Assembly (NCBI GenBank): GCA_022564295.1
Contig: JADFLR010000003.1
Span: forward strand, 124,001 to 188,000
Direction: 5' to 3'
Origin: Bacteroidota bacterium
Lineage (GTDB): Bacteria; Bacteroidota; Ignavibacteria; Ignavibacteriales; Ignavibacteriaceae
DNA: 64,000 nt
Shown: positions 38,833 to 52,125 of the stretch, piece after piece
Numbering within the stretch: the first letter of the stretch is position 1
Layout of the letters: each line of letters opens with the position of its first letter
Program-made: the position numbers and the translations under genes
Notes under the pieces: model-generated
Databases searched by the model: none
What the model saw: the letters and a program-made list of their open reading frames with translations, nothing else
Told to the model about the DNA's origin: nothing

Positions 38833-39088
38833 TTATTATTCCTCTTTCTAATACTTGTTAACTTTTGTTAAAAATCTATAGTCGGATATTTAAGTCTGAT
38901 TAAATCTAATAAATTATTATTTACTTGTCAAGATTAAAATTTTTGTTTTGTAAAAAATAATTTACAACGTGTATCATAACCGACAAACACAAGTTTGTTA
39001 AAGGAGTTTTATTATAATTGAGGACTGTCTTTATCTATTTCTTAATTAATCGAGAAATACACAGAAATGAATTGTAGTATTAGATAAC
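38801..39088 (-). repeat. Promoter-containing duplication, copy 2 (nar operon)
   Basis: Ungapped partner of 11679-11966. It contains the first codons of the cytochrome gene, the ribosome binding site AGAGGAA, a TTAAC-N4-GTTAA dyad and a TTGTAA/TTACAA dyad (spacer 8) upstream of the -35 element. After 39088 similarity ends. Confidence 0.9.
38903..38931 (-). promoter_or_regulatory. Sigma-70-like promoter of the nar operon
   Basis: Minus-strand TTGACA (38926-38931), 17-base spacer, TAGATT (38903-38908). Apparent leader of about 65 bases. No canonical FNR box (TTGAT-N4-ATCAA) was seen; the TTAAC-N4-GTTAA dyad is similar in size and could serve a related regulator. Confidence 0.6.
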
Positions 39089-39186
39089 GATGTTGCTGCT
39101 AAGCCGCCCTCCCCGGAAAGGAAGAGCAGATTAAAACAACAAACTAAAAAATTGCAAAAATATTTATTTGATCACGTCATTGGTAA

Positions 39187-39366
39187 TCCGAAGAATGGCT
39201 GGCAAAAACACACTGGCTGTTTGGAATTGCATCAGCAATTTCCATCTGGTTATGGTAATTATGTTTATCAATTAAATCATTAAAGAAACTTACCTGGTTG
39301 TTTGCCGTTATCACTTTAATCCTCATATCTATCACCGGTTTATACGGTGGTATTTTAGCCCATTAG
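39187..39366 (+). pseudogene. Fragment of a small membrane protein, interrupted by a stop
   Basis: Sixty in-frame codons read SEEWLAKTHWLFGIASAISI...stop...LTWLFAVITLILISITGLYG and end GILAH-stop. Two hydrophobic helices remain, with one internal TAA after residue 23 and no start codon. The GLYGG ending resembles DUF2231-type membrane proteins found near copper or heme genes. Clearly decayed. Confidence 0.55.
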
Positions 39367-39396
39367 AATTTATTAGGTATCAAGGAGAATAAGAAA

Positions 39397-39534
39397 ATGA
39401 TTGATGAGGTTTTCGGGATCGAACTTGGCTGGATTGTCAGGTTAATACATATTGTCGTAATGGTGTTGGTGGCATTTCAGTTCAGAGGCGATAATCATGG
39501 TCATTATTATAAAGGTAATAATGCTCACTTCTAA
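39397..39534 (+). CDS. Small ORF (45 aa), membrane peptide with His-rich tail
   Basis: ATG at 39397 with AAGGAG nine bases upstream. It encodes one hydrophobic segment (IVRLIHIVVMVLVAF) and a tail GDNHGHYYKGNNAHF. It may be a small intact protein or the remains of a truncated membrane protein; the surroundings are pseudogenes. Confidence 0.35.
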   Translation: MIDEVFGIELGWIVRLIHIVVMVLVAFQFRGDNHGHYYKGNNAHF

Positions 39535-39548
39535 ATACAATATAACAC

Positions 39549-39608
39549 TACGCTAACGTAGAAATAAGCAAATATGAATTTGAAAGAATGAAAAAAGATT
39601 TAATGTAA
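39549..39608 (+). pseudogene. SHOCT-domain C-terminal fragment
   Basis: Encodes YANVEISKYEFERMKKDLM-stop with no start or membrane helix. The DNA nearly matches the SHOCT remnant at 48300-48346 (GAATTTGAAAGAATGAAAAA shared) and the protein matches the tail of the intact SHOCT protein at 15008. Confidence 0.65.
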
Positions 39609-39627
39609 TTTATTAGAGGGTTGAAAA

Positions 39628-39798
39628 ATGGAATATGATAATCATCGTGCAGTGAATGTACATAAAACTCACGGTCATCACCAAAATCTAGGGCACGAAC
39701 ACTACGGTCATTCACAAATGACATCCGACTATGAGAAGCGTTTATGGATTTCGCTTGGATTGACAATCCCAATATTACTCCTTTCACCGATTATTTAG
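39628..39798 (+). pseudogene. Truncated N-terminus of a CopB-type heavy-metal P-type ATPase
   Basis: ATG at 39628 after GAGGG. The 56 codons give a His-rich metal-binding tail (HKTHGHHQNLGHEHYGHSQM) and the start of the first membrane helix (YEKRLWISLGLTIPILLLSP), exactly as copper ATPases begin, then an amber stop where Gln is expected. Reading through gives KFLDMGTTFK, again ATPase-like, after which homology ends. The remaining roughly 600 residues are absent. Confidence 0.75.
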
Positions 39799-39904
39799 AA
39801 ATTCCTGGATATGGGTACTACATTTAAGCTATTAATAATTTTATTTTGATAATTGTGTAACTTAAGAAGAATGAAATAATTATTGACAATAATTCTACTT
39901 AAAT

Positions 39905-41323
39905 ATGTACGATAATATCAAATTTGATTTCAAAATTTTTGACAACTTCCATGATATGTGTTTTATTATTTCGCACAATGGTGTGATTTTAAATTTTAAT
40001 TCAACAGTAAAAGAGATGTTAGGATTTGATAAAAAAGATATTATAAATAAAAAATTATTTGATATTATTGATAAACCTTATTTAGAGAAATCAAAAAGTA
40101 TAGTAAATAACCAATTAGAGACAAAGGGGGGAAATATTTTTGTTAAGATAAAAAGAAAAACCGGGCTGGTTGATGTTGATTTAACATATATGCCTTTTAC
40201 TTATAATGGTAAAAGAATTATTTTTGTACTTGCAAGGGACATAACAGAGGATAAAGATAAGGAACTTAAGTTAAGGCGTTTCTATTCAGTGGCAAATAAA
40301 ACCATAAATTCAATTCAGATAACTGATGAAAATGGTAAAATTATTTATGTAAATCCTGCCTACATTAACGCTATTGGTTACAGTGAGGAGGAATTACTTG
40401 GAAAAGATCCCAAAGTTTTCGGCAGCGGAAAACATTCAAAGAAGTTTTGGGAAAATATGTGGAATACAATTAAAAGTGGTAAAGTATGGGTGGGCGAAAT
40501 TGAGGATAGAAAAAAATCAGGCGAACCTTTTTATACGCAGGCTATAATATCTCCAATTACAGATGATGATGGGAAAATTACAGGTTATTTCGGGATATAT
40601 AATGATATTGCAGAAAAAAAGATGCTCGAGAAAAATTTAATTCATTCCCAGAAAATGGAAAATATTGGAATTCTTGCAGCAGGAATTGCACATGAAGTTG
40701 GAAATCCACTTGCATCAATTTCAGCTTTGGTCCAGGTTGTTCAAAGAACTTCCAGTGAAGAATTTGCAATAGAAAAATTAGAATTAGTTAAAAGCCAGGT
40801 AAGAAGAATTTCTAAAACAATAAGAGATCTTGTTGATTTCTCGCGTCCTTCTAATTATGAGCTTCGTTTAACGGATATAAATAAAAATATACTGGATGCT
40901 GTTGAAATAATTAAAGCCGGAATAAAAGTGAAAAGCATTGAGTTCATTCTTAAGCTCAACTCTGAAATTCCTCCCTTATCCCTTGTACAGGATCAGATAG
41001 AACAGGTATTTATAAATATTCTGATTAATGCGATTGACGCTATTGCCGATGATAATAAGGATCTTAAAAAGATATTTATTTATACAGATATAATTAATGA
41101 TAATTTAATTATTACTTTTGAGGATACGGGAATTGGCATTTATGAAGAAGATATATCTAAAATTTTTGAACCGTTTTTTACTACTAAAGAAGAAGGTAAA
41201 GGAACAGGATTAGGTTTATGGATAACATACGGAATTATAAAGAGTTTTCAGGGTGATATAAAAGTAGAGAGTACTAAAGGTGTGGGTTCAAAATTCATTT
41301 TAACATTACCTATTAATAAATAA
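39905..41323 (+). CDS. PAS-domain sensor histidine kinase (NtrB-like, soluble)
   Basis: 472 residues, no membrane helix. Two PAS domains (about 5-120 and 125-245, the second with NAIGYSEEELLGKDPKVFGSG), then HisKA with phospho-acceptor His at about 263 in AAGIAHEVGNPLASISALVQ, and HATPase with N-box NILINAIDAI, DTGIGI, FEPFFTTK and GKGTGLGLW. It is a cytoplasmic sensor; its signal may be redox or oxygen through a PAS cofactor, but no heme or flavin ligand can be assigned. It precedes its regulator by six bases. Confidence 0.95.
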   Translation: MYDNIKFDFKIFDNFHDMCFIISHNGVILNFNSTVKEMLGFDKKDIINKKLFDIIDKPYLEKSKSIVNNQLETKGGNIFVKIKRKTGLVDVDLTYMPFTYNGKRIIFVLARDITEDKDKELKLRRFYSVANKTINSIQITDENGKIIYVNPAYINAIGYSEEELLGKDPKVFGSGKHSKKFWENMWNTIKSGKVWVGEIEDRKKSGEPFYTQAIISPITDDDGKITGYFGIYNDIAEKKMLEKNLIHSQKMENIGILAAGIAHEVGNPLASISALVQVVQRTSSEEFAIEKLELVKSQVRRISKTIRDLVDFSRPSNYELRLTDINKNILDAVEIIKAGIKVKSIEFILKLNSEIPPLSLVQDQIEQVFINILINAIDAIADDNKDLKKIFIYTDIINDNLIITFEDTGIGIYEEDISKIFEPFFTTKEEGKGTGLGLWITYGIIKSFQGDIKVESTKGVGSKFILTLPINK

Positions 41324-41328
41324 TCTGT

Positions 41329-42672
41329 ATGAATACTAATATTTTAATTGCTGATGATGAAGAGCAGATAAGGGAACCTCTCTCCTTTGTTTTAAATAAA
41401 GAAGGATATAACTGTAAAACAGTTAATGATGGCTCCAATGCTATAAAAGCTTTACAAGAAGATAATTATGACATCCTAATTACAGATATAAAAATGCCAG
41501 GGATGAACGGGGTTGAAGTGCTTGAAAAATCAAGAGAAATATCTCCTGAAACTATAGTTATTCTTATTACTGCATACGGTTCAGTTGAAACTGCAATACA
41601 GGCATTAAGAAAAGGGGCAGCAGATTATCTTTTAAAACCTCTCGATTTTGATGAGGTGCTGGTAAGACTAAAAAATCTCATCAGGAACAAGGAGCTTTTT
41701 CGTTTTAATAAAATACTGCGTAAACAGATTAATACTAATTATAATTTTGAAAATATAATTGGTAAATCATCTGTAATGAAAAAAATATTTGAAATGGTAA
41801 AACAGGTAAGCGAAGTAAGCACAAACATTCTTATAACCGGTGCAACAGGTACAGGGAAAGAATTAATTGCAAGAGCAATTCATAACAACGGCAGCAGAAA
41901 AGATAAACCTTTTATTCCTGTAAATTGTGGAGCTATCCCCGAAAACTTATATGAATCGGAATTCTTTGGTTACAAGAAAGGAGCTTTTACAGGAGCAGAT
42001 TCAAATTACGAGGGTCTATTCAAGTCTGCTGATTCAGGAACCATTTTTCTGGATGAGATAGCTGAACTTCCCGAGCATATGCAGGTTAAGCTGAATAGAG
42101 TACTTCAGGAAAGAGAGATTAGACCTATAGGCTCAAGCTTTACCATAAAAATTGATGTGAGAATTTTAGCTGCTACAAACAAAAATCTAGAAGAAGAAGT
42201 AAAAAGCGGATCTTTCAGGGAGGATCTATTTTACAGGATAAATGTTGTTGAATTAAAACTTCCTTCTCTTGCAGAAAGAAAAGACGATGTTCCTCTTCTT
42301 GTTGATCATTTTATTAATAAATATAACAACGAGCTTAATAAAAGTATAATGGGAATTGATAATGAAGTTATAAAATTATTTATGAGTTATGACTGGAAAG
42401 GAAATTTAAGAGAACTCGAAAATATGATTGAAAGGGCTGTACTACTTTGTCAGGAAGATATTATAACACCAAAATATTTACCTTCACATATATTTGAAAA
42501 TAAAAATGAATTGTATACGGATAATCTGAGTGAAGCTATGGAAACTTTTGAACAAAATCATATTAATGAAATTTTAATAAGAACAGAGGGTAACAAAACT
42601 GAAGCTGCTAAACTCCTTGGTGTTGATCCCTCCACCCTTTATAGAAAAATGAGTAAAAATTTAAAAAAATAA
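41329..42672 (+). CDS. NtrC-family sigma-54-dependent response regulator
   Basis: 447 residues: receiver domain with phospho-acceptor D53 (ITDIKMPGMNG) and Lys in YLLKPLDF; AAA+ domain with Walker A GATGTGKE, an intact GAFTGA loop, Walker B SGTIFLDEIAELP; C-terminal Fis-type helix-turn-helix (NKTEAAKLLGVDPSTLYRKM). Partner of the adjacent histidine kinase. The paired TTGCA-N4-TGCAA boxes upstream of nearby porin, YceI and cytochrome genes are its likely targets. Its last 34 bases overlap the 3' end of a converging yceI-like gene. Confidence 0.95.
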   Translation: MNTNILIADDEEQIREPLSFVLNKEGYNCKTVNDGSNAIKALQEDNYDILITDIKMPGMNGVEVLEKSREISPETIVILITAYGSVETAIQALRKGAADYLLKPLDFDEVLVRLKNLIRNKELFRFNKILRKQINTNYNFENIIGKSSVMKKIFEMVKQVSEVSTNILITGATGTGKELIARAIHNNGSRKDKPFIPVNCGAIPENLYESEFFGYKKGAFTGADSNYEGLFKSADSGTIFLDEIAELPEHMQVKLNRVLQEREIRPIGSSFTIKIDVRILAATNKNLEEEVKSGSFREDLFYRINVVELKLPSLAERKDDVPLLVDHFINKYNNELNKSIMGIDNEVIKLFMSYDWKGNLRELENMIERAVLLCQEDIITPKYLPSHIFENKNELYTDNLSEAMETFEQNHINEILIRTEGNKTEAAKLLGVDPSTLYRKMSKNLKK

Positions 42673-43073
42673 TCTCCACCGAGTTTGATATTTATGTCAG
42701 CCACATTTATAACCTGACTGATTCCGGCTATCAGATTGAACTTAATAACTAATTCATCATCAGCCTTTATTAAACCAAAAAAAGCAGAGGGAGGCTCAAT
42801 ATTAAAATCATGCATCGATAATTTTTTAATACCTAACAGATTATATTTTCCATCAGGCAGTTTCCTAACTTTAAGGGGAATATTAACAATTCTTTTATAT
42901 CCCGCAATTGTAAGATATCCTGTTATTTGTATTTCAGACCAGCCGCCAATCTCTTCTTCTGATACTATTTTACTATTTAATAACTCATACAAAATAAAGG
43001 GATTATTTTTATCCTTCATAGCTTCATACATATCATCATTCATCATTTCGTTCCTGCAATCCAGATTTTTCAC
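42639..43073 (-). pseudogene. N-terminally truncated YceI-family protein (copy of 44645-45331)
   Basis: 144 codons match the C-terminal two thirds of the YceI protein encoded at 44645-45331 almost residue for residue (MMNDDMYEAMKDKNNPFILY, IGGWSEIQ, TIAGYKR). The signal peptide and first part are missing: homology continues a little beyond the ORF start (to about 43120) but out of frame. It may be untranslated. It overlaps the ntrC-type gene tail-to-tail. Confidence 0.75.
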
Positions 43074-43120
43074 AACAATTGAGACGACAACTTAAGATTC
43101 AAATTTTTGATTTCCATTAG
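42641..43120. repeat. Segmental duplication, copy 1 (regulator 3' end plus yceI part)
   Basis: Aligns to 44638-45120. It includes the last 30 or so bases of the response regulator gene (CCTTTATAGAAAAAT) followed by the yceI-like sequence in reverse. Confidence 0.85.
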
Positions 43121-43123
43121 TTA

Positions 43124-43984
43124 TTAAATGCCAAAGTTAATACCACCTGATAATGAAAAATCAGATGTGGAATTATTTAAACCAAAAGAAGAGATAAAGC
43201 TGTAACTTAACAGCTGGCTAACAATATAACTATATCCGAGTGCAAATTGTTTTGGTGCAACAAAGCCGTTCACTAAAGTTGAATAGGAATCGTAACCAGC
43301 AAAAAGGGCATGATTTCCGTTACCAAGATAAACACCAATTCCAATGCTGAATGTTACAGGATTCGTAACATCTGTTCCTTCGGTCTTTCCAACAATTAAG
43401 TATCCAAGTTGTGTGTAGAATAAAAATCTATTAAATGTTTTTCTTAACGATAAAGCAACATTAAAGTCATATTCACCTGTTCCTATATTCAGCGAGGTGG
43501 TTGCAGTAGGAAACTTTATAAATCCATCCAGCGAAATTTCAGGCAAAACATTTTCCTGAAGAAGTAGTTTATAACTTCCATATAAATACAGGTCGCCAAT
43601 ACCGGCATTTAGTGAGGACATCATCCCGTTTGTGTCATCCATCATCGAACCGTACATGTTTAATTCATCATACCACATTCCACCTGTATCTTTACCATAA
43701 TGCCTGTTTGGAATAAATATACCGCCAACCTGTGTAAATGAACCTTTGCTTGCAAAAACTATCGGAAGGTTCACATTCAAATTGAATCTCTGTGCCTGAT
43801 ATCTTAAACCGCCATAAACATAAGTAGATACATAATGTGTCCCATCAGAAAAGTTACTACCTACAACTTGCAGGGTAGCATTTCCAATAAAACTACCCTG
43901 AGCGATACTGACATTACTGAGACTAATCAGAAAAAAGACAAGACCGCTTGCTATTAGGGCTTTACTATTACTTTGCTTACCCAT
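43124..43984 (-). CDS. Outer membrane transporter-like beta-barrel protein
   Basis: 286 residues, signal peptide ending SNVSIAQG, then amphipathic beta strands throughout (YVSTYVYGGLRYQAQRFNLN, FDYDVALSL-type repeats, LFAGYDSY) and a C-terminal aromatic-poor strand ending INFGI. Resembles the MetA-pathway/phenol-degradation type outer membrane proteins. It begins one base after the Met-rich protein gene, so the two form an operon. Substrate unknown. Confidence 0.6.
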   Translation of the reverse strand: MGKQSNSKALIASGLVFFLISLSNVSIAQGSFIGNATLQVVGSNFSDGTHYVSTYVYGGLRYQAQRFNLNVNLPIVFASKGSFTQVGGIFIPNRHYGKDTGGMWYDELNMYGSMMDDTNGMMSSLNAGIGDLYLYGSYKLLLQENVLPEISLDGFIKFPTATTSLNIGTGEYDFNVALSLRKTFNRFLFYTQLGYLIVGKTEGTDVTNPVTFSIGIGVYLGNGNHALFAGYDSYSTLVNGFVAPKQFALGYSYIVSQLLSYSFISSFGLNNSTSDFSLSGGINFGI

Positions 43985-43985
43985 A

Positions 43986-44453
43986 TTAATTCTTATCAGG
44001 GTAACTTTGCATTTGGTATTGTTGATTTAAGTAAATTATCATTCCATCATAATTTTCCATCATACCGTTCATATCTTTCATCATCTCGTTCATTTGTTCC
44101 TGCATATTTTCATCCTTCATCATACTTTCGTTCTTCATCATCTGATTCATCTGGTTAAGCATACCATCCATATTTTTAGACATGTCGTGCATATTGTTCA
44201 TGAATTGCATACTTAAGGAATTCTGCATCTGGGTCATATTCTGGCTCATGGATTGCATCAGTTGATTCATCTGTCCGTTCATTTCATCCATATGATTCAT
44301 CATCTGTTGCATGTTCATCATATTGTTTTGCATCATTCCCTGCATGTTCTGGAACATTCCGCCCTGCATATGCTGTGCATTAACAGAAAGTGTAAATACA
44401 ATAAATACGGCAACTAACAGAGCTGACATTTTATTTAAAGGTTGAGCTATCAT
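43986..44453 (-). CDS. Exported methionine/glutamine/asparagine-rich protein
   Basis: About 155 residues from ATG 44453, which has AAGGAGA nine bases upstream (an ATG at 44477 lacks one). Signal peptide ends SVNAQ. The mature protein is dominated by Met, Gln and Asn in heptad-like spacing (MQGMMQNNMMNMQQMMNHMD, MLNQMNQMMKNESMMKDENM) and is predicted to be a long coiled coil. Periplasmic Met-rich proteins often bind Cu(I)/Ag(I). The surrounding YceI, HMBD remnant and ATPase remnant support a metal link, but this is inference. Confidence 0.65.
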   Translation of the reverse strand: MIAQPLNKMSALLVAVFIVFTLSVNAQHMQGGMFQNMQGMMQNNMMNMQQMMNHMDEMNGQMNQLMQSMSQNMTQMQNSLSMQFMNNMHDMSKNMDGMLNQMNQMMKNESMMKDENMQEQMNEMMKDMNGMMENYDGMIIYLNQQYQMQSYPDKN

Positions 44454-44546
44454 TTTAGGTCTCCTTACATCATTCATTGTTTAAATATTTATTAAGTTGT
44501 ATAACATATCAGTCGTGTGCTGCGGTTGATAAATGTTAAAAAAATG

Positions 44547-44665
44547 CTAATTAACTTTAAAACCATTTTTCTCTAAGTTAGTTTTTGCTTCTTTCAGTGA
44601 AACCTCTAGAAGTTTCATTCCACATTGAGGGCATTCTCCATCCTTTATAGAAAAATTAGTAGAAA
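44547..44665 (-). pseudogene. C-terminal fragment of a heavy-metal-binding-domain protein
   Basis: In-frame codons read IKDGECPQCGMKLLEVSLKE and end KNGFKVN-stop. ECPxCGMKL is the metal-binding core of HMBD proteins usually linked to copper efflux. The upstream half (YTCPMHP-type) is missing; the sequence instead runs into the yceI/regulator duplication breakpoint at about 44638. Confidence 0.6.
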
Positions 44666-45120
44666 TTTAAAAGAATAATCTTCACCGAGTTTGATATTTA
44701 TGTCAGCCGCATTTATAGCCTGACTTATTCCGGCTATCAGATTGAACTTAATAACTAATTTATCATCAGCCTTTATTAAACCAAAAAAAGCGGAGGGAGG
44801 CTCAATATTAAAATCATGCATCGATAATTCTTTAATACCTACCAGATTATATTTTCCATCAGTCAGTTTCCTAACTTTAATGGGAATATTAACAGTTCTT
44901 TTATATCCCGCAATTGTAAGATATCCTGTTGTTTGTATTTCAGACCAGCCGCCAATCTCTTCTTCTGATACTATTTTACTATTTAATAACTCATACAAAA
45001 TAAAAGGATTTTTTTTATCCTTCATAGCATCATACATATCATCATTCATCATTTCGTTCCCGCAATCCAGACTTTTCACAACAATTGAGACTACAGCTTT
45101 GGATTCAAATTTTTGATTTC
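44638..45120. repeat. Segmental duplication, copy 2
   Basis: Partner of 42641-43120. The left end carries a stub of the response regulator 3' end, showing that the source of this copy was the regulator-yceI junction. Confidence 0.85.
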
Positions 45121-45331
45121 CATTTCCTTCTCTTTTTAAATTATCACTTTTAATGAAAGCGTATCCGTTGATTGAACTTGTTATGCATGTAAAATCAATA
45201 ATCGTCGAAGTTCCTTCAATCCATAATTTGCTTCCCGGGAGCGTTCTGTATTCAATTCCGTTTTTAATCTGCGAAAAGAGCAATGGAAATTGAATAAGAA
45301 TAAAAATAATATATACAAAGTATTTTAACAT
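44645..45331 (-). CDS. YceI-family periplasmic protein
   Basis: 228 residues with signal peptide (MLKYFVYIIFILIQFPLLFS) and a YceI lipocalin-like fold: KLWIEGTSTIIDFTC, WSEIQTTGYLTIAGYKRTVN, GIKELSMHDFNIEPPSAFFG. YceI proteins bind polyisoprenoids and often sit with cytochromes. It is the second gene of an operon started by another yceI gene nine bases upstream. Confidence 0.87.
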   Translation of the reverse strand: MLKYFVYIIFILIQFPLLFSQIKNGIEYRTLPGSKLWIEGTSTIIDFTCITSSINGYAFIKSDNLKREGNGNQKFESKAVVSIVVKSLDCGNEMMNDDMYDAMKDKKNPFILYELLNSKIVSEEEIGGWSEIQTTGYLTIAGYKRTVNIPIKVRKLTDGKYNLVGIKELSMHDFNIEPPSAFFGLIKADDKLVIKFNLIAGISQAINAADINIKLGEDYSFKFLLIFL

Positions 45332-45340
45332 TTTACATCT

Positions 45341-45955
45341 CTACTTTCTGTTCAGGATCATATCGAATTTTACAGTTATTTCATTTCCTGTATTCATTGT
45401 CCCAAAAAACATACTCGGAGGATCGACACCAAAATCAGTCATTAAAAGTTTTATTTCTCCCTTAAACTCAAATTTATTCTCACTGTGTTTTACAACAGTA
45501 ATATTCAAATCGACTGGTTTTTTTGTTCCGGCAACCGTTAGATTTCCAGTAGCATTTATTTTTATGGAATCAATTACATTATCAAAAGAAAAAACAACTG
45601 GAGAAATAAGTTCAAAGACTATATTGGGGTTTACCTTTGCTAATAAAGCCTCTTGCATATTTTCATCCATTGATTCGTCTCCGCTATCAAGTTTCCAAAC
45701 CGGAATAATAAGTTCAAGATTAGAAATCTTAAATTCCTCTTTAGAGTTATTTTCATCAACAGAACTTTCAATAATTAATGAGCTCATAAATTCTTTTGCG
45801 TTAATTGTAAAATCATGAAATGTTGAAGTCCCTTCAAGCCAAAGCTTACTTTCCGGTTGAAACCAGGATAATAATGAATTGTTATTTTGACTAAATGCTG
45901 CTGTGGATATTAAGATTGTTAATAATACTAAATAAACCAATTTTAACTTTTTCAT
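45341..45955 (-). CDS. YceI-family periplasmic protein
   Basis: About 204 residues from ATG 45955, preceded by AGGAGCAGAG. Signal peptide MKKLKLVYLVLLTILISTAA ends AFSQ. YceI signatures: KLWLEGTSTFHDFTI, NATGNLTVAGTKKPVDLNI, LLMTDFGVDPPSMFFGTM. First gene of the yceI operon, with a sigma-54-like promoter just upstream and paired activator boxes shared with the divergent porin gene. Confidence 0.88.
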   Translation of the reverse strand: MKKLKLVYLVLLTILISTAAFSQNNNSLLSWFQPESKLWLEGTSTFHDFTINAKEFMSSLIIESSVDENNSKEEFKISNLELIIPVWKLDSGDESMDENMQEALLAKVNPNIVFELISPVVFSFDNVIDSIKINATGNLTVAGTKKPVDLNITVVKHSENKFEFKGEIKLLMTDFGVDPPSMFFGTMNTGNEITVKFDMILNRK

Positions 45956-45999
45956 CTCTGCTCCTAAATTGAATAATAATTTTTTACTGCTCATCGAAG

Positions 46000-46015
46000 T
46001 CCAAACATCATACCA
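46000..46015 (-). promoter_or_regulatory. Sigma-54-like -24/-12 promoter of the yceI operon
   Basis: Minus-strand TGGTAT-GATGT-TTGGA, compared with consensus TGGCAC-N5-TTGCW. The predicted start of transcription is about 33 bases before the start codon at 45955. Confidence 0.45.
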
Positions 46016-46067
46016 AATATTCTTTTCGCATTTAAGAAATGAAAACGAAAAAACTAATCAATTCACT

Positions 46068-46113
46068 TTGCAACATTGCAAGTTTAATCATTCTTCCATT
46101 GCATAGCTGCAAT
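46068..46113. promoter_or_regulatory. Paired activator-binding boxes TTGCA-N4-TGCAA
   Basis: TTGCA-ACAT-TGCAA (46068-46081) and ATTGCA-TAGC-TGCAAT (46098-46113), centres 31 bases apart. They sit roughly 85-160 bases upstream of sigma-54-like promoters on both strands, the usual place for enhancer-binding proteins. The same pair with 32-base spacing occurs at 49132-49177. Confidence 0.6.
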
Positions 46114-46198
46114 GATCCGGGATTATAAATTTTTATGGTTTGATAAATAATATCAGTTAAACAATCAAAATCTAATATTTGACAAATTATTGATTGAA

Positions 46199-46214
46199 TG
46201 GCACTGCGTTTGTC
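46199..46214 (+). promoter_or_regulatory. Sigma-54 -24/-12 promoter of the porin gene
   Basis: TGGCAC-TGCGT-TTGTC matches the consensus TGGCAC-N5-TTGCW at all but two positions. Leader to the start at 46287 is about 60 bases. Confidence 0.6.
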
Positions 46215-46286
46215 TACCTGCAATAGCTTTGAAACAATAAAAAGCAATTAACAATAAATTATTAACCAATTTTAGTGAGGTATAAA

Positions 46287-47594
46287 ATGAAACAGTCTTT
46301 GTTGATATTTATCAGTTTAATATTTGTAATCTTGTTTGGTTTAACTGAGGAACAACTTGCCCAGGAGAGGGATTTACAGTACTTCCGATATCCTGATAAA
46401 AGAGGTCTTAATGTTTTTGAGACCTCTAAAAAAGATACCGTCAAATTTGATGGTTTAAAGGTGCGGATTGGTGGAGCATCAACACTTCAGTTCCAGGGTA
46501 TTGACCATAGCAATGAAGCAAATATTGTAGACGACGGTGAAGGTAATAATGTTAACCAACTGATCGAGTTAAGTAATAATTTTAATCTTGCAACCGCAAA
46601 TCTCGATTTTGATGTACAGCTTGCAAACGGTGTAAGAATGCATTTGAGAACATATCTTTCTTCAAGACACCATAATGAAGCATATGTAAAGGGAGGCTAT
46701 CTTCAAATTGATAAACTGGATTTTATAGATAAAGGATTCCTGGATGATATTATGGATGTTGTTACAATTAAGGTTGGTCATATGGAAATTAACTATGGCG
46801 ATGCTCATTTCAGAAGATCAGATAATGCTATGACTATATTCAATCCTTTTGTGGGTAATTATATTTTAGACGCATTTTCAACAGAAGTTGGCGGTGAAGT
46901 ATATTTCAAAAGTCATGATATCATTGCAATGGTGGGTTTATCAAACGGAAAACTAAACCAAAGTGTAAATGACGGTGGAGCTACGAGTGTTGCATTTTTA
47001 GCAAAGCTCGGTTTTGATAAACAATTCAGCAGTAACTTTAGACTTCGTTTATCAGGTTCCGTTTATACAAATAATAAAGCTGCCCGGATATACTTATATA
47101 GTGGTGATAGAGCAGGTGCCCGCTATTACAGTGTAATGGAGAGTATAACATCTACTCGTGATAACTTCACCTCCGGGAGATGGAATCCAGGATTTGCAGA
47201 TAAACTGACTGCATTTATGATAAACTCCTTTATCAAATACAACGGACTTGAACTATTCGGCACATTTGAAAGACCGGAAGGTGGGGATTTCCCTGGTGCT
47301 ACTGAAACAAGAGCGTGGAATCAATTCGCTATTGATGCAGTCTACAGGTTTGGAATGGAAGAGAATTTCTATGCTGGAATAAGGTATAATACTGCTAGTG
47401 GTAAACTTGCCAATAGCGATCCAAATGAAGTAACTATTAACCGGGTTCAAGCAAGTTTAGGATGGTTTTTGACTAAGAATATTCTAGTAAAATTTGAATA
47501 TGTAAATCAAACTTATGATGACTTCCCCTTAGATAATATTCATAGTGGGGCAAAATTTAGCGGGTATGTAATTGAAACCGCTATTTCATTCTGA
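46287..47594 (+). CDS. Outer membrane porin (OprP/phosphate-selective-like)
   Basis: About 435 residues from ATG 46287 (GAGG seven bases upstream; ATG at 46275 has none). Signal peptide ends EEQLAQ. Beta-barrel pattern throughout: VRIGGASTLQFQGID, VQLANGVRMHLRTYLSSR, YLQIDKLDF, KVGHMEINYGDAHF, and a final strand FSGYVIETAISF with C-terminal Phe. Controlled by a probable sigma-54 promoter with paired boxes. Followed by a strong terminator, so it is a single-gene transcript. Substrate not known. Confidence 0.85.
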   Translation: MKQSLLIFISLIFVILFGLTEEQLAQERDLQYFRYPDKRGLNVFETSKKDTVKFDGLKVRIGGASTLQFQGIDHSNEANIVDDGEGNNVNQLIELSNNFNLATANLDFDVQLANGVRMHLRTYLSSRHHNEAYVKGGYLQIDKLDFIDKGFLDDIMDVVTIKVGHMEINYGDAHFRRSDNAMTIFNPFVGNYILDAFSTEVGGEVYFKSHDIIAMVGLSNGKLNQSVNDGGATSVAFLAKLGFDKQFSSNFRLRLSGSVYTNNKAARIYLYSGDRAGARYYSVMESITSTRDNFTSGRWNPGFADKLTAFMINSFIKYNGLELFGTFERPEGGDFPGATETRAWNQFAIDAVYRFGMEENFYAGIRYNTASGKLANSDPNEVTINRVQASLGWFLTKNILVKFEYVNQTYDDFPLDNIHSGAKFSGYVIETAISF

Positions 47595-47609
47595 TAATAC
47601 TTTAACTGA

Positions 47610-47641
47610 CAGGGTTGTCTTAAAAAACAACCCTGTTTTTT
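47610..47641 (+). terminator. Rho-independent terminator after the porin gene
   Basis: Stem CAGGGTTGT / ACAACCCTG (9 bp), loop of eight bases, followed by six T. Confidence 0.9.
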
Positions 47642-47707
47642 ATGAATAGTTTTTATTGTAAAAATATTTTTTAAAATTATTTGAATTTCTCAAACATTTA
47701 GAAACTT

Positions 47708-48070
47708 ATGAAAAATATACTTTTTTATAGTTCAGATATTATGTTTAGTAATAGCTTTTTAATTTATTTACAAAATAAATTTAATGTTACAATAACAACA
47801 AACATAGATGACTTCAAATTGATCTTTTGTCATACACATTCCGATATTATTATTATGGATATAGAGCCTTCAAAAGCAATAGAAATAATTTGTAAAGATA
47901 TCCATCATATAAAAAGTAACATTCCCATTATCCTTACTTATGTTTTTAATAACAGGATAAAAGACTTCGATGACAGAATAAGAAAATATGTCAGATCAAT
48001 ATTTTATAAGCCTATTGATATAGATGAAATAACAAATAAGCTTGATAGCTTAGCATTTAAGAAGACTTAA
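47708..48070 (+). CDS. Stand-alone receiver-domain-like protein
   Basis: 120 residues shaped like a CheY receiver: ILFYSSDIMFSNSFLIYLQN at the start, a central Asp in IIIMDIEPSK, Thr in PIILTYVF and Lys in IFYKPIDIDEI. The N-terminal acidic pair that binds Mg2+ is reduced to a single Asp (SSD), so phosphorylation may be impaired. No output domain. It is placed after the porin and before metal-gene remnants. Confidence 0.7.
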   Translation: MKNILFYSSDIMFSNSFLIYLQNKFNVTITTNIDDFKLIFCHTHSDIIIMDIEPSKAIEIICKDIHHIKSNIPIILTYVFNNRIKDFDDRIRKYVRSIFYKPIDIDEITNKLDSLAFKKT

Positions 48071-48071
48071 A

Positions 48072-48176
48072 ATGAAAAATCTATATATTGAAGTAATTCT
48101 GATTCTAATTTTTACTATTGGGATAGATTTTGCACATGAATATCACAAAAATAAAAAACAAATACGGTTACAGTAG
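48072..48176 (+). CDS. Possible small membrane peptide (34 aa)
   Basis: ATG at 48072, one base after the receiver gene stop. Encodes MKNLYIEVILILIFTIGIDF followed by a basic tail. Could be real by its tight coupling, or chance in AT-rich DNA. Confidence 0.3.
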   Translation: MKNLYIEVILILIFTIGIDFAHEYHKNKKQIRLQ

Positions 48177-48265
48177 TTAATTGTTATACTAGGAATTAGT
48201 ATCTTGGCTCTATTCCAGTCTGCCGGTCGCATTCACAATGATACTCCGCAGGTAAAACGATTTCC

Positions 48266-48346
48266 ATTGGATATGCTGAAAATAGATATGCGCGTGGTGA
48301 AATAAGCATAGATGAATTTGAAAGAATGAAAAAAGATTTAATGTAA
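48266..48346 (+). pseudogene. SHOCT-domain C-terminal fragment
   Basis: Encodes IGYAENRYARGEISIDEFER and MKKDLM-stop with no proper start in frame. DNA of the last 47 bases nearly repeats 39562-39608. Confidence 0.6.
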
Positions 48347-48380
48347 CTTTTTAATCCGATAATTTAGAAGGAGAATGACT

Positions 48381-48764
48381 ATGTCTTACTATTTTTCAAA
48401 AAAACTGGATTTGGGGTTTGAGGAGGCAATAGAAAAAGTAACGGAGGCTTTAAAAAGCGAGGGCTTCGGTATCCTAACAGAAATTGATGTAAAGGAAACA
48501 TTAAAAAAGAAGCTGGATGTGGACTTCAGACCCTATAAAATTTTGGGTGCTTGCAATGCACCGTTTGCACATAAAGCTCTTGAAGCGGAAGATAAAATAG
48601 GAGCGATGCTTCCTTGCAATGTTATCGTTCAGCAGCTTGAAGACGGAGTTGAAGTTGCAGCTGTCGATCCGGTTGCATCCATGATGGCAGTTAAAAACGA
48701 TCAATTGGGTGAAGTTGCTTCAACTATACAGAGTAAACTGAAAAGTGTAATTAAAGGGTTATAG
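48381..48764 (+). CDS. DUF302-family protein
   Basis: 127 residues from ATG 48381 (AAGGAG seven bases upstream; the ATG at 48375 is too close to it). Classic DUF302: KLDLGFEEAIEKVTEALKSE, TEIDVKETLKKKL, YKILGACNAPFAHKALEAED, IGAMLPCNVIVQQ and VDPVASM. Fold is known but function is not; such genes often accompany copper or sulfur functions. Here it is intact among decayed metal-resistance genes. Confidence 0.92.
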   Translation: MSYYFSKKLDLGFEEAIEKVTEALKSEGFGILTEIDVKETLKKKLDVDFRPYKILGACNAPFAHKALEAEDKIGAMLPCNVIVQQLEDGVEVAAVDPVASMMAVKNDQLGEVASTIQSKLKSVIKGL

Positions 48765-48803
48765 TGAATGAGCTATCTAACTTTTTAAGGTGTTTTAAAA
48801 GTG

Positions 48804-49004
48804 ATGAACCGATTCGGCGGAATGTAGTTTGGTTGGTTTTTCTGGATTATGTTGCTTGCTCTTTTTGTATGGTTTGTCATCAAACTTCTACAAAGATTAA
48901 AGAATAACGATCTAAATACTTACTATAATATTTCTTCAGCAGATTTAGCAAAAAACACAAAAGGTGAGGAGAAAAGAAATAGTATTGAAAAAATAAATAA
49001 TTAA
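48804..49004 (+). pseudogene. Decayed SHOCT-like membrane protein gene
   Basis: Sixty-seven codons with a TAG at codon 8: MNRFGGM-stop-FGWFFWIMLLALFVWFVIKL, then a charged tail ending KNTKGEEKRNSIEKINN. The FGW...W...membrane helix layout parallels the intact SHOCT protein at 15008. A shorter frame from an internal ATG would still encode the helix. Confidence 0.45.
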
Positions 49005-49131
49005 TGCAAGGATAATTAAAATATCTTCATATATTGGCGCATTAAAATTTACTCTGGATTTGTAGTATTTATTTAATAATTACTTACAATTAGGATTCTT
49101 GCAAAACCAATAAAACTACCTTAAATACCTC

Positions 49132-49177
49132 TTGCAATTCTGCAAGATTTTCAAATATACATCTTGCAATTCTGCAA
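49132..49177. promoter_or_regulatory. Paired activator-binding boxes TTGCA-ATTC-TGCAA
   Basis: Two identical boxes (49132-49145 and 49164-49177) with centres 32 bases apart, each extended to CTTGCAATTCTGCAAG. A half box TTGCAAAA lies about 30 bases further upstream. A -24-like TGGCAC sits at 49264. Confidence 0.6.
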
Positions 49178-49263
49178 GACCTTCAAATAAATTAAAAAAA
49201 CGAAGTGGCTGTAACTGCTTATAATTCATTGAGTTAAGGATTTTCAATCATTGAATATTTCCT

Positions 49264-49279
49264 TGGCACAATTGTATAG
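49264..49279 (+). promoter_or_regulatory. Possible sigma-54 promoter of the cytochrome/porin operon
   Basis: TGGCAC-AATTG-TATAG: the -24 part is perfect, the -12 part (TTGCW expected) is poor. Placement relative to the paired boxes and to the start at 49340 matches that seen at the 46287 porin gene. Confidence 0.4.
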
Positions 49280-49339
49280 TAGCATTAATAAAACATTTAA
49301 ACTGCTAATAAATATCAAATAAGAAAAAGGAATTAAATT

Positions 49340-49777
49340 ATGCAAAAGATACTAAAATGCGCACTGTTTTCAGTTAGTTTTCTGTCTTTATTTATTTTGT
49401 TCGTAGCAGCTACGTTCAATGAAAATGGTTTCGGAGGAGGAGATGACTGGAAAGCCCCTGCTTCGGTAAAAACTCTTGAAAATCCTCTTGCAAAATTTAA
49501 AGGTAATTCCAAAATAACCAATCTTGGCAAATCATTGTATACACAACAATGTGCAACTTGTCATGGAGATTCGGGTTTAGGTGACGGTTCATCAGCAAGA
49601 TATTTACAAAAGTATCCAAGAAACCTAACTACATCAGAATTTCAATCTCAAACTGATGGTGAAATTTTCTGGAAAATAGTTAACGGTAATTCACCGATGC
49701 CTACTTTCAAAGATATATTAACTGAAAAACAAATGTGGATAGTAGTTAACTATCTGCGCACACTTGCTTCTAAATAA
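49340..49777 (+). CDS. Periplasmic monoheme cytochrome c
   Basis: 145 residues: signal peptide (SVSFLSLFILFVAATF), a class I cytochrome c domain with LYTQQCATCHGDSGLGDG and the distal Met in GNSPMPTFKDILTEKQMW. The mature protein is about 115 residues. First gene of a three-gene operon with a porin and a cytochrome lipoprotein. Good AAGGAA site before the ATG. Confidence 0.92.
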   Translation: MQKILKCALFSVSFLSLFILFVAATFNENGFGGGDDWKAPASVKTLENPLAKFKGNSKITNLGKSLYTQQCATCHGDSGLGDGSSARYLQKYPRNLTTSEFQSQTDGEIFWKIVNGNSPMPTFKDILTEKQMWIVVNYLRTLASK

Positions 49778-49820
49778 CTCATTATAAAAATATTAAGAAA
49801 TAGCTTGAAAGGAACTAAAC

Positions 49821-50984
49821 GTGAAGAAGGTTAAAATATTAATTGCATTTATTCTATCTTTTATGCTATCACAATCGTTGATGGCCCAAAAGGAACAGAA
49901 GTCTCTTCTAACGGGGTACGGTTTTACTAATCTGGAAATAGAAAGTGACGATCCTGCTCAGTTTAAAATTGGATTTAATCCTATATTCCTATGGAGTATA
50001 AATAACAATATTTTATTCGAAAGTGAACTTGAGTTTGAGATTGAAGATAACAGTACTGTTGTTGTTATAGAGTATGCACAAATTATGTACATAGCTAACG
50101 CATATATGACTTTTGGTGCCGGTAAGTTTTTAAGCCCAAATAATATATTTTCTGAACGCTATCACCCGGCATGGATAAATAAATTACCGAATATGCCATT
50201 AGGATTGTCTGCTCATTCTGGCGCACAATTATTGGCCGGAACACAGGTTGGTTTACAGGTAAGAAGCGGAATTCCTGTGGGGTCCTCAAAAATTGTTTAC
50301 GCTTTATATGTTTCAAATGGTCCGGCATTAATTGTTGACGAGGATGAGGATATCCACGGAGAGGGTGGCGGTGATGAAGATCCGCACGGAGAAATTGAAG
50401 AAGGAGGACATCACGGTGCAACAGGCCCGCTTAGTTTTAGTAATATACCAGATAATAATAGCGATAAAGCTATCGGTGGTAGAATCGGATTTATCCTATT
50501 CCCTGAATTGGAAATTGGTTATGGATTTGAAACTGCAAGAGTAGGAACTGATGATACCGAATTTAGTGATGTAAGGTCATTTAACAACGTTGTTGATCTA
50601 TCGTATGTGCAAGATATTAAATCTCTTGCCGGTAAGGTTGATGTTAGAAGCCAATTTACCTGGTTGAATGTTGATAATCCGGGAATAGATCACTTAAATT
50701 ACGAAAACAACAGTACTGCCTGGTATGCTCAATTTGCATATCAGCCTTATTATATAGAAAGCTCATTTTTACAGAATTTAGAATTCGTAGTTCGTTACGA
50801 TCAAATAGACTTGCCTAAAGAGGCCGAATTGAATACTGATCAAAATAGGATTACAGTTGGCGTCAATTATTGGCTCAATCATAGCACGGTAATTAAGTTC
50901 GCTTACGGAAATATAACTTCAGAACATGAAGATGGGAGTGAATCAGAATCAACACTTATCTTCCAGATAGCAATGGGATTTTAA
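49821..50984 (+). CDS. Outer membrane porin-like protein with acidic/His-rich loop
   Basis: 387 residues, GTG start with AAGGA upstream, signal peptide ending SLMAQK. Barrel strands throughout (FKIGFNPIFLWSINNNILFE, AYMTFGAGKFLSPNN, IKFAYGNITSE) and a terminal strand LIFQIAMGF. Residues about 172-200 hold a strongly acidic, His-containing stretch (DEDEDIHGEGGGDEDPHGEI, EEGGHHG) likely to bind divalent metal at the surface. Resembles proteins annotated as porins next to cytochromes in Bacteroidetes. Confidence 0.75.
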   Translation: MKKVKILIAFILSFMLSQSLMAQKEQKSLLTGYGFTNLEIESDDPAQFKIGFNPIFLWSINNNILFESELEFEIEDNSTVVVIEYAQIMYIANAYMTFGAGKFLSPNNIFSERYHPAWINKLPNMPLGLSAHSGAQLLAGTQVGLQVRSGIPVGSSKIVYALYVSNGPALIVDEDEDIHGEGGGDEDPHGEIEEGGHHGATGPLSFSNIPDNNSDKAIGGRIGFILFPELEIGYGFETARVGTDDTEFSDVRSFNNVVDLSYVQDIKSLAGKVDVRSQFTWLNVDNPGIDHLNYENNSTAWYAQFAYQPYYIESSFLQNLEFVVRYDQIDLPKEAELNTDQNRITVGVNYWLNHSTVIKFAYGNITSEHEDGSESESTLIFQIAMGF

Positions 50985-51005
50985 AATCATTAAGGAAAAT
51001 TTAAC

Positions 51006-51275
51006 ATGAAGAATAAAATATCAAAAATATTGTTTGTTAGTTTAGTTGTCGCATTTATTCTTATTGTGTTGGGCTGTGCTGCAGACCTAACAAATGCGAA
51101 TAAACCAGGCGCACTACTATGGGGAGAGAATTGTGGCCGCTGCCATAACGTTCGCCCGCCTTCAAGCCTTACAGATTCTGAATGGGATGTTGCAGTTTTG
51201 CATATGCGAACAAGAGCAAACCTAACCGAAACTGAAGCGGAGAAGATAGTAGTGTTCTTAAAAGCGGCGAATTAA
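51006..51275 (+). CDS. Small cytochrome c lipoprotein
   Basis: 89 residues. Type II signal peptide with lipobox VLGCA, then NCGRCHNVRPPSSLTDSEWD: a single CxxCH with no obvious distal Met except in LHMRTRANL. Fold fits the short cytochrome c family often predicted as sulfite/thiol- or porin-associated electron carriers. Third gene of the 49340 operon, followed by a terminator. Confidence 0.85.
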   Translation: MKNKISKILFVSLVVAFILIVLGCAADLTNANKPGALLWGENCGRCHNVRPPSSLTDSEWDVAVLHMRTRANLTETEAEKIVVFLKAAN

Positions 51276-51305
51276 TAATAGTGGGGCAACCCCCCGCTGA
51301 TTAAC

Positions 51306-51338
51306 AGGCGATTGATATAACACCAATCGCCTTTTTTA
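51306..51338 (+). terminator. Rho-independent terminator of the cytochrome/porin operon
   Basis: Perfect 9-bp stem AGGCGATTG / CAATCGCCT, nine-base loop, run of six to seven T. Confidence 0.92.
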
Positions 51339-51810
51339 TTTTGAACGATATACTCCTTAATTAAACACCAATATTATTCATCCCTAATTAATTTTTTAAT
51401 AGTGTGCGTTTATTTGTTACAATTATACTTACTATCCTTTTGTTGTAAATCAACCAACACCAAGTGCAACAACAATCACTAAGCTTAACACTTAATTCTA
51501 TTAACCGTTTAAAGGTTTCTTTCCAAATATTAAAGAAACTTATTTTAGTGGTATTGCAGATTTTTATACATTATTTATGATGGTTTGAAAATGGAAATAT
51601 TATGATAAACTTGCACAAGCTTATTTAGCAAGTTTTAATTTTAATATTGAGAGGGTTAGCAAAAACAAAAAAAATAGAAATGGATTTACCTGCCAGTTTG
51701 GCTTTTTGCCAGGATGTTTTGCAAAGGAGAAATTTTTAGTTCGGTAACTAAATATAATTTGCCCTGTTTGTAAAGCGGGACTTTTTTTATATAATTACGA
51801 GGAATAGAAA
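51339..51810. other. Non-coding region before the CMD-family gene
   Basis: No gene found. It holds an 8-bp hairpin GTTTCTTT/AAAGAAAC (about 51514-51538), the second copy of the dispersed GGC-TTTTT-GCC element (51682-51711) and, at about 51761-51788, a terminator-like GCCCTG..GCGGGAC followed by seven T just before the next ribosome binding site. That order could be an attenuator or a small RNA; I did not recognise a known riboswitch such as the Moco class. Confidence 0.45.
51682..51711. repeat. Copy 2 of the dispersed GGC-TTTTT-GCC element
   Basis: Reads GGATTTACCTGCCAGTTTGG followed by CTTTTTGCCA; partner of 5355-5383. Confidence 0.5.
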
Positions 51811-52125
51811 ATGTCACAAATACCAAAACGATATCTGAAGTTCAAAGAAGATTATTCTGATGTTGCAGCTGCTTACGAATCAATGGGCGATGCTGTTCAC
51901 AATGCAGGTCCGTTAAATGAAAAAACACGAGCATTAATAAAACTTGCAATTTCAACAGGCGCACAATTGGAAGGAGCAGTTCATTCGCACGTAAGAAAAG
52001 CAATAAATGTAGGTGCGTCGAAAGAAGAAATACGCCAGGTAGCTCTACTTGCTTTACCAACAATAGGGTTACCTTCGATGATGGCAGCATTAAGCTGGAT
52101 TGACGATATTATAGAAGTAAATTAA
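51811..52125 (+). CDS. Carboxymuconolactone decarboxylase-family protein
   Basis: 104 residues of the CMD/AhpD fold: PLNEKTRALIKLAISTGAQ, EGAVHSHVRKAINVGASKEE, IRQVALLALPTIGLPSMMAA. The Cys-x-x-Cys of AhpD peroxidase is absent, while Glu and His of the EGAVHSH motif are present, so it is more like the non-redox decarboxylase-type members. Substrate unknown. It precedes the molybdenum cofactor genes on the same strand. Confidence 0.88.
   Translation: MSQIPKRYLKFKEDYSDVAAAYESMGDAVHNAGPLNEKTRALIKLAISTGAQLEGAVHSHVRKAINVGASKEEIRQVALLALPTIGLPSMMAALSWIDDIIEVN

Follow-up and report, generated by a model that had tools for sequence, protein, structure and literature searches.

A candidate sigma-54 two-component regulon in an Ignavibacteriaceae genome, with possible takeover of a cytochrome operon by a paralogous activator

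Does a single two-component system (TCS) control the outer-membrane and periplasmic electron-transfer genes that lie behind two pairs of TTGCA-N4-TGCAA dyads in an Ignavibacteriaceae genome? The dyads stand in a stretch of 64,000 nucleotides (GCA_022564295.1, contig JADFLR010000003.1, positions 124,001 to 188,000; hereafter, the window), one pair between a porin gene and divergent yceI genes and the other upstream of an operon for a c-type cytochrome and a second outer-membrane protein, porin2 (Table 1). An earlier note on this DNA had proposed one system for all of these genes and had placed a histidine kinase and an NtrC-type regulator with GAFTGA at 39905-42672, where the open reading frames (ORFs) and Pfam agree with it. 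We call the two proteins HK-A and RR-A, and the pair TCS-A. The sequence evidence for RR-A/sigma-54 control of the porin/yceI divergon is strong, and control of the cytochrome operon by RR-A, after loss of a second system (TCS-B, consisting of HK-B and RR-B), is plausible. Taken as a whole, a sigma-54 two-component regulon that includes this takeover appears likely.

RR-A has the receiver, the Sigma54_activat domain with GAFTGA, the Fis-type helix-turn-helix (HTH) and the adjoining kinase of an NtrC-type response regulator, and in the regulator tree it belongs to clade A (support 98/96); clades A, B, C and E each form one side of a branch with bootstrap values of 98-100. HK-A, in which Pfam calls no membrane domain, is also the partner of RR-A in genome G069 (relatives are given as genomes, G, or loci, L), and its kinase core is conserved in the loci of G024, G045 and G062. 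The proposal would fall if the genome had no rpoN, and one is present, with a single PF04552 match (E = 2.5e-61) and an intact RpoN box, ARRTVAKYREQ.

The dyad pairs were found at both places claimed, except that the end coordinate of the first had been given one base too large, and their start-to-start spacing is 31 bp for A1/A2 and 32 bp for B1/B2. Single dyads with up to two mismatches showed no excess in the window (53 found against 52.4 expected), and the signal is the exact tandem arrangement, not the single dyads. In the whole genome of 4.07 Mb there are 16 exact dyads (1 for the reversed control pattern), and the genome scan for paired boxes that the earlier note had suggested, run for exact tandem pairs with 2-32 bp between the dyads, returned only the two pairs of the window (0 for the reversed control). 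About 0.0003 pairs would be expected from 16 dyads at a spacing of 28-36 bp. Eleven of the 12 remaining dyads were inspected (the twelfth, on contig C56, was left out), and every one was single and internal to an ORF. A loose tandem pattern, TGCA-N4-TGCA twice with 17-23 bp between, gave no third pair in the whole genome, and a wider regulon is thus rejected. Upstream of HK-A (38833-39904), the sole box-like match with up to two mismatches was a poor single one at 39580.

Comparison of the porin loci ties the paired box to RR-A. Among 196 genomes searched, our own included, 8 encode porin relatives. In six of them (G069, G035, G052, G024, G062 and G045) there are two divergent yceI genes and a tandem pair 31-33 bp apart, with at most one mismatch across its two box cores, though the porins of G035 and G052 are only 26-30% identical to ours. 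An RR-A orthologue adjoins the porin in five of the six and lies on another contig in G052. In G172, which has two porin loci, yceI runs in the same direction as the porin, the fetched 20 kb shows no RR-A, and there is no pair. A scan of named genomes, from which the best 80 of 249 loci encoding a porin relative were kept, added two new pair-bearing loci, L197 and L200, since L135, L137 and L138 evidently correspond to G069, G062 and G024. RR-A was seen in the fetched flank of four scan loci (L135, L137, L138 and L197), and in all four, divergent yceI goes with a pair no more than 600 bp upstream of the porin; among the 76 without RR-A in the flank, a pair was found in 1 (L200) and none in 75. 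L214 was not scored as having an upstream pair: its one loose pair is 4.5 kb past the porin start, on the downstream side. L197, a Balneolales metagenome-assembled genome, has the same RR-A helix as the window. Altogether, of the porin loci in genomes with RR-A (the window, the six relatives and L197), 8 of 8 have the pair, and in each of them it sits between sigma-54-like elements on both strands. A tandem pair with up to one mismatch occurred in no more than 0.05% of 2000 dinucleotide shuffles of each of six regions.

The sigma-54-like elements were scored with a fixed TGGCAC-N5-TTGC consensus against 500 mononucleotide shuffles. Of the -24/-12-like elements that had been proposed, the one for the porin stands by itself, whereas the yceI and cytochrome elements do not reach significance alone (Table 1) and the cytochrome -12 is TATA. 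The placement of the boxes 85-160 bases upstream of these elements was roughly right: the box centers lie about 95 and 126 bp from the GG of the -24 for the porin and the cytochrome, and about 60 and 91 bp for yceI. The porin-side element reads TGGTACTTCGTTTGT in G069 and TGGCACGGCAGTTGC in L197, and the yceI-side geometry is repeated, 53-70 bp from the yceI start, in six other divergent loci. In L197 both sides are canonical (TGGCACGGCAGTTGC and TGGCACGGTGCTTGC; 0 of 500 shuffles on each). In the other divergent loci the two strands carry, in comparable positions, the pattern YGGYNY-N5-TTG plus one of G, T and A; GG and TTG are correctly spaced in seven divergent loci, of which only L197, a perfect case, keeps GC, the others having GT, GG or GA in its place. 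This pattern occurred on both sides at once in 0 of 2000 shuffles, a figure that is flattering because the pattern was drawn from the same loci. Single promoters are thus weak evidence, and the repeated geometry and L197 carry the case.

The cytochrome operon has a different history. Relatives of porin2 occur in 13 of the 196 genomes, our own included. In G002, G003 and G004 of the same genus, and in G024 and G045, the cytochrome and porin2 genes directly follow TCS-B, with one exact box between. HK-B has a six-transmembrane PilS-like domain and a PAS domain, and RR-B is 43-46% identical to RR-A. In G062 the box upstream of the cytochrome has one mismatch and the contig ends in a response-regulator fragment. 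In five same-order porin2 loci, the fetched stretch shows no response-regulator relative, and the operon has no upstream box. In the window, TCS-B is missing and the relic of its leader remains. Compared with G002, a further 140 bp is missing inside the relic; from 49090 onward the sequence matches the G002 box and operon (84%), and to the left of 48828 the two neighborhoods differ. A whole-genome search for RR-B gave RR-A itself at 45% and other full-length regulators at no more than 41%; RR-B was not found. Since TCS-B stands beside the operon in two genera of the family, its loss here, not its gain elsewhere, is the simpler reading.

The seven cytochrome enhancers, the window included, align with a TGCAAA half-site and a full box about 33 bp on. 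In the window the second full box stems from a 32-33 bp duplication, of which the units agree at 26 of 32 bases. The congeneric genomes G001-G005 have no tandem pair and no RR-A orthologue (best match 45-50%), and congeneric regulators in the tree belong to clades B or C. A sequence of events can be proposed from these observations. HK-A, probably a soluble PAS-PAS kinase, would phosphorylate RR-A, and RR-A oligomers would bind the two TGCA-N4-TGCA dyads, about three helical turns apart, so that one shared enhancer could drive RNA polymerase with sigma-54 at the divergent porin and yceI promoters. The cytochrome/porin2 operon would originally have been under the adjacent HK-B/RR-B; after deletion of that pair in this lineage, RR-A may have taken over the orphaned operon, and most likely also drives it now. 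The duplication would have turned an enhancer of half-site and one box into one of half-site and two full boxes, the RR-A layout, and the sensor input would have changed from a membrane PilS-like one to a soluble PAS-PAS one.

What would make such a takeover possible is the DNA-recognition helix, which is nearly identical in RR-A and RR-B. Other clade A helices read D(P/K/A/T)STLYRKM, those of clade B NPSTLYRKM or NSSTLYRKI, and those of clade E, which are PAS-PAS one-component bacterial enhancer-binding proteins (bEBPs), (N/D)PSTLWRK(M/I) or DVTTLWRKM, so that (D/N)x(S/T)TL(Y/W)RK(M/I) is common to clades A, B and E. Clade E also adjoins a box pair, in the seven loci fetched for their pairs (L049, L050, L051, L052, L103, L104 and L105, that is G048, G053, G153, G168, G016, G159 and G123), and the pair is therefore not specific to RR-A across the class. 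In these loci the tandem TGCA-N4-TGCA boxes lie directly 5' of the activator's own gene (helix STLWRK or TTLWRK). Where inspected, the genes facing it were a radical-SAM gene (G053) and an ARMT1-like gene (G153), and in G168 a further pair precedes an ARMT1-like gene some 4 kb away from that of the activator. In the g20 genomes, which have both A and B, the outer TT/AA is lost from the A boxes (one lineage). RR-C, a close RR-A paralogue in four congeners, has the helix LSTLYRKL or LSTLYRRL.

It could be argued, instead, that RR-A controls the porin and yceI genes only, that the cytochrome boxes are a relic of TCS-B in an operon now unregulated or served by a housekeeping sigma factor, and that the duplication was neutral. 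The degenerate cytochrome -12 fits this, as does a sigma-70-like TTGAAT-18-TATAGT at 49251-49280, a type of match near background level (23 found against 17.9 expected). However, the duplicated boxes are identical at 14 of 14 positions, against 6 differences in the remaining 18 of the unit, the duplication yields the RR-A kind of spacing, and RR-A has nearly the RR-B helix. We judge this explanation unlikely, though it deserves to be kept in mind.

Errors of assembly seem a very improbable source of the deletion and the duplicated box: many of the genomes are drafts, but the junction is inside a contig of 220 kb, both of its sides match the relative, and a search of the rest of the genome, which is rated 100% complete, did not find RR-B. 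We likewise give little credence to CRP/FNR-type sites (FNR, DNR or NnrR) under nitrate or nitric-oxide control. The dyads of these regulators share the TTGNN-N4-NNCAA outline and the half-site geometry of our boxes, genes for respiratory nitrate reductase are nearby, and two CRP/FNR-type HTH genes score above cut-off in the genome. Against this, the boxes follow RR-A across loci (CRP/FNR genes were searched in our own genome), the distance from site to -24 element is about 60-126 bp, and the spacing of 31-33 bp within the tandem is conserved. One of the two proteins has the FNR-like helix SRETISRTL, which presumably prefers TTGAT, not TTGCA. Because the boxes follow RR-A and the FNR-like helix fits, as we take it, another half-site, an FNR/NnrR box was put aside.

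That a different bEBP of the same genome binds the boxes, RR-A being a mere neighbor, is scarcely credible: of the 17 Sigma54_activat matches, 12 are clear and 5 weak, and the RR-A-type helix was not seen in the other 11 clear activators, of which the C-terminal 55-60 residues were inspected (the nearest was SERTLYRKI in L112, and L110 showed no Fis-type helix there), whereas RR-A is linked to the boxes in 7 of 8 loci and present, unlinked, in G052.

Several observations weigh against TCS-A control of both gene groups. The comparison of 4/4 with 1/76 gives a Fisher p value of 3e-6 uncorrected for kinship, and related loci make it too small; for those 76 loci RR-A was looked for in flanks, not in whole genomes, and 12 of the 80 scan loci offer under 8 kb of upstream sequence. 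L200 has a pair without a visible RR-A, on a Balneolaceae contig of 3.3 kb that leaves little room for one. Draft and metagenome assemblies are numerous among the genomes, and a single contig is the source for the deletion. The duplication would have come after the deletion, and may have been selected. The flanks of RR-C (up to about 1.5 kb, one partly masked) hold no box with up to one mismatch; with its similar helix, this means that the helix alone does not predict boxes and that the rule is incomplete. In the other divergent loci most promoter elements are not significant (p = 0.05-0.41 on the porin side and 0.016-0.35 on the yceI side), and in L047 the fixed score prefers a different yceI-side site. 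The cytochrome -12 is poor both in the window and in its congeners, including those that bear RR-B.

The cytochrome -24 of the window is good (TTGGCAC at 49263), and the orthologous elements are AGGCATAATAGTTGC in G024 and TGGCATAATGGTTGC in G062; the -12 is TTGC in these two and TTGG in G045, and is neither of these in the window and its three congeners. The element gave p values of 0.002 or less in G024, G045 and G062, and of 0.53, 0.17 and 0.33 in G002, G003 and G004, and in G002 and G004 the score prefers other sites. Thus, the claim of one two-component system for all of the genes holds strongly for the divergon, whereas for the cytochrome operon it is plausible but indirect, given another TCS in the relatives and the weak -12.

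The proposed control resembles NtrC-type regulation in the receiver-AAA+-Fis HTH architecture with GAFTGA and in having its dyads in pairs upstream of -24/-12 elements, with about three helical turns between partners, the spacing of the NtrC sites at glnA. In contrast, TGCA-N4-TGCA is not the NtrC site, the targets here are envelope and electron-transfer genes, and RR-A is far below the NCBI cut-offs for NtrC (TIGR01818, 409.9 bits against 558.6) and AtoC (NF008469, 452.1 bits against 714). The AtoS-AtoC models of Escherichia coli are nevertheless the best-scoring NCBIfam models for HK-A and RR-A, both below cut-off. The verified AtoC site at atoD, GCTATGCAGAAATTTGCACA, holds TGCA half-sites, according to the part of PMC3118216 that describes it, but with TGCA-N6-TGCA spacing against N4 here, and AtoC has different targets. 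A plasmid search with RR-A gave only distant sigma-54 regulators, at no more than 43% identity among the matches listed, and spellings of a TGCA-N4-TGCA-type motif were not found in the literature searched.

Takeover between RpoN-dependent activators is already documented from laboratory evolution: in the FleQ-to-NtrC rewiring of Pseudomonas fluorescens, as described in the relevant passages of PMC10621929, one RpoN-dependent activator is lost and a homologous activator takes over its promoters. That case involved laboratory selection with mutations in the kinase and the HTH, whereas the present one would be in a natural genome, with the regulator deleted and the box duplicated. The sigma-54 regulons of Desulfovibrio vulgaris are small, mostly of 1-4 operons, and were found through the co-localized activator, dyad and promoter, and the paralogous response regulators DVU0539 and DVU0946 are said to recognize the same site (sigma-54 passages of PMC4641369 and PMC3333781). 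Unlike our site, the string TGCA is absent from the main texts of these two papers (the logos are in figures), and their Desulfovibrio sigma-54 passages hold no case of loss and takeover.

The porin model from AlphaFold, which replaced a first one made from 6 sequences (predicted local distance difference test, pLDDT, 47), has 2o4v OprP as its best Foldseek match in the PDB (E = 6.2e-13; template-modeling score 0.57 by query length; root-mean-square deviation 6.9; 11% identity), with OprO (4rjx/4rjw) in the top 5. Identity to OprP, OprO and other PDB porins is 8-13%, and the match is in general fold and not necessarily in family. The two YceI proteins score 29.4 and 53.5 bits for PF04264 (gathering cut-off 23.7), and yceI-1 is taken to start at a later ATG of the 45994 ORF because the predicted transcription start site is just downstream of 46001. 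A truncated yceI-2 copy follows RR-A at 42639-43073, and the outer-membrane and Met-rich genes separate it from the intact copy, as if it were left over from a partial duplication. Relatives of that outer-membrane gene adjoin cytochrome/porin2 in 4 of 5 fetched same-order loci. Counterparts of the small receiver-like protein follow the porin in G069 (63%) and L197 (17%), and four congeners have one next to RR-C (33-40%); Asp51 and Lys101 are invariant in the 7 rows, and the protein is possibly a phosphate sink or a third component. Rfam at gathering thresholds had no match in 38800-52000.

Table 1. Features of the window (positions and strands as in the window)
Feature	Position	Strand	Basis or remark
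HK-A histidine kinase	39905..41323	+	Pfam: two PAS stretches, HisKA, HATPase_c
RR-A, NtrC-type response regulator	41329..42672	+	Pfam: receiver, Sigma54_activat with GAFTGA, HTH_8; helix DPSTLYRKM
Predicted outer-membrane protein, distal in yceI direction	43124..43984	-	by reading; no Pfam match
Met/Gln-rich protein, yceI direction	43986..44477	-	ORF; relatives in L098 and L101
yceI-2	44645..45331	-	Pfam YceI PF04264, E 1.2e-6
yceI-1	45341..45958	-	Pfam YceI PF04264, E 4.4e-14 for the longer ORF
Sigma-54-like promoter TGGTATGATGTTTGG for yceI	46001..46015	-	p 0.17 alone
Candidate enhancer box A1 TTGCAACATTGCAA	46068-46081	.	exact dyad; pair conserved
Candidate enhancer box A2 TTGCATAGCTGCAA	46099-46112	.	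exact dyad; pair conserved
Sigma-54-like promoter TGGCACTGCGTTTGT for porin	46199..46213	+	p 0.002 alone
Porin, OprP/OprO-like beta-barrel	46287..47594	+	AlphaFold pLDDT 88.5
Intrinsic-terminator-like hairpin 3' of porin	47608..47637	+	2 such in 3.5 kb against 1.3 expected
Small single receiver-like protein	47708..48070	+	no Pfam match
Relic of leader just upstream of hkB in G002	48828..49086	+	blastn and alignment: 48828-48922 89%, 48920-49086 90%
Deletion scar	49087..49089	.	about 3.2 kb with HK-B and RR-B missing compared with G002
Half-site TTGCAAAACCA	49099..49109	+	TGCAAA conserved in 7 aligned cytochrome enhancers
Candidate enhancer box B1 TTGCAATTCTGCAA	49132-49145	.	exact dyad; extra copy compared with 6 relatives
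Candidate enhancer box B2 TTGCAATTCTGCAA	49164-49177	.	exact dyad; full box here in 6/6 relatives (G062: one mismatch)
-24 TGGCAC with degenerate -12 (TATA for TTGC), cytochrome operon	49264..49278	+	p 0.47 alone
c-type cytochrome	49340..49777	+	Pfam Cytochrome_CBB3 1.9e-12
porin2, outer-membrane barrel	49821..50984	+	by reading only; 81% identical to G002; no Pfam/NCBIfam match
89-aa protein, third operon gene	51006..51275	+	one CxxCH haem-binding motif (CGRCH); 82% identical to G002; no Pfam match

Upstream of HK-A there are a molybdopterin oxidoreductase (34291-37911) and a respiratory nitrate reductase beta subunit (32465-34015; Nitr_red_bet_C, 1.5e-15), which we take for narG and narH. 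An NrfA-type cytochrome c552 (Pfam, 1.5e-175) is encoded at 926-2425, at the far end of the window, beside an ORF read as NrfH, and the contig thus carries genes for nitrate and, probably, nitrite ammonification. The nitrate reductase and the cytochromes near TCS-A, TCS-B and TCS-C suggest a connection with respiratory electron flow. TCS-C, the third paralogous system (L124-L127, in G001, G003, G004 and G005), stands beside the small receiver, with no TGCA boxes in the fetched flanks, and its loci in G003 and G004 encode a CxxCH protein (in G004, the cytochrome c3/c7 models narrowly miss their cut-off). In L201 (Flammeovirgaceae UBA7330), one cluster holds the cytochrome, porin2, a relative of the narG-side cytochrome, the yceI-porin genes and a heavy-metal P-ATPase (HMA and HMBD domains) without RR-A and without boxes, which suggests that the functional link is older than the regulation. 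A sigma-54 activator at 21521-22498 has HTH_8, lacks a receiver and has GAFTSA in place of GAFTGA.

Tandem pairs elsewhere were of several kinds. Of the 196 genomes, our own included, 9 have exact pairs and 21 have loose ones, and in the follow-up of pairs in relatives, which left out G009 and G042, the idea that all are regulatory was rejected, several being repeat arrays by eye (G006, G014, G039, G089, G106 and G167 among them). Contigs C10, C46 and C54 of G089 have arrays of TTGCAAGGTTGCAAGAATGCAA-like units that mimic the box pattern. The pairs of G106 (L021), G162 (L023) and G099 (L024) have no adjoining activator in the fetched flanks.

On balance, the comparisons lean towards a natural regulon capture between paralogous sigma-54 activators, in which an in-place deletion would have left the leader, a paralogue would have taken over with a change of sensor, and a duplication would have completed a two-box enhancer. 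The regulon would be of modest size and the regulatory rewiring unusually legible. This case may be a natural counterpart of the laboratory takeover, as one genus shows the states before and after, the deletion has left a scar, and the cis-regulatory step has a candidate; the candidate recognition rule linking STL(Y/W)RKM with TGCA-N4-TGCA may serve regulon prediction in the poorly studied Ignavibacteria and Balneolales.

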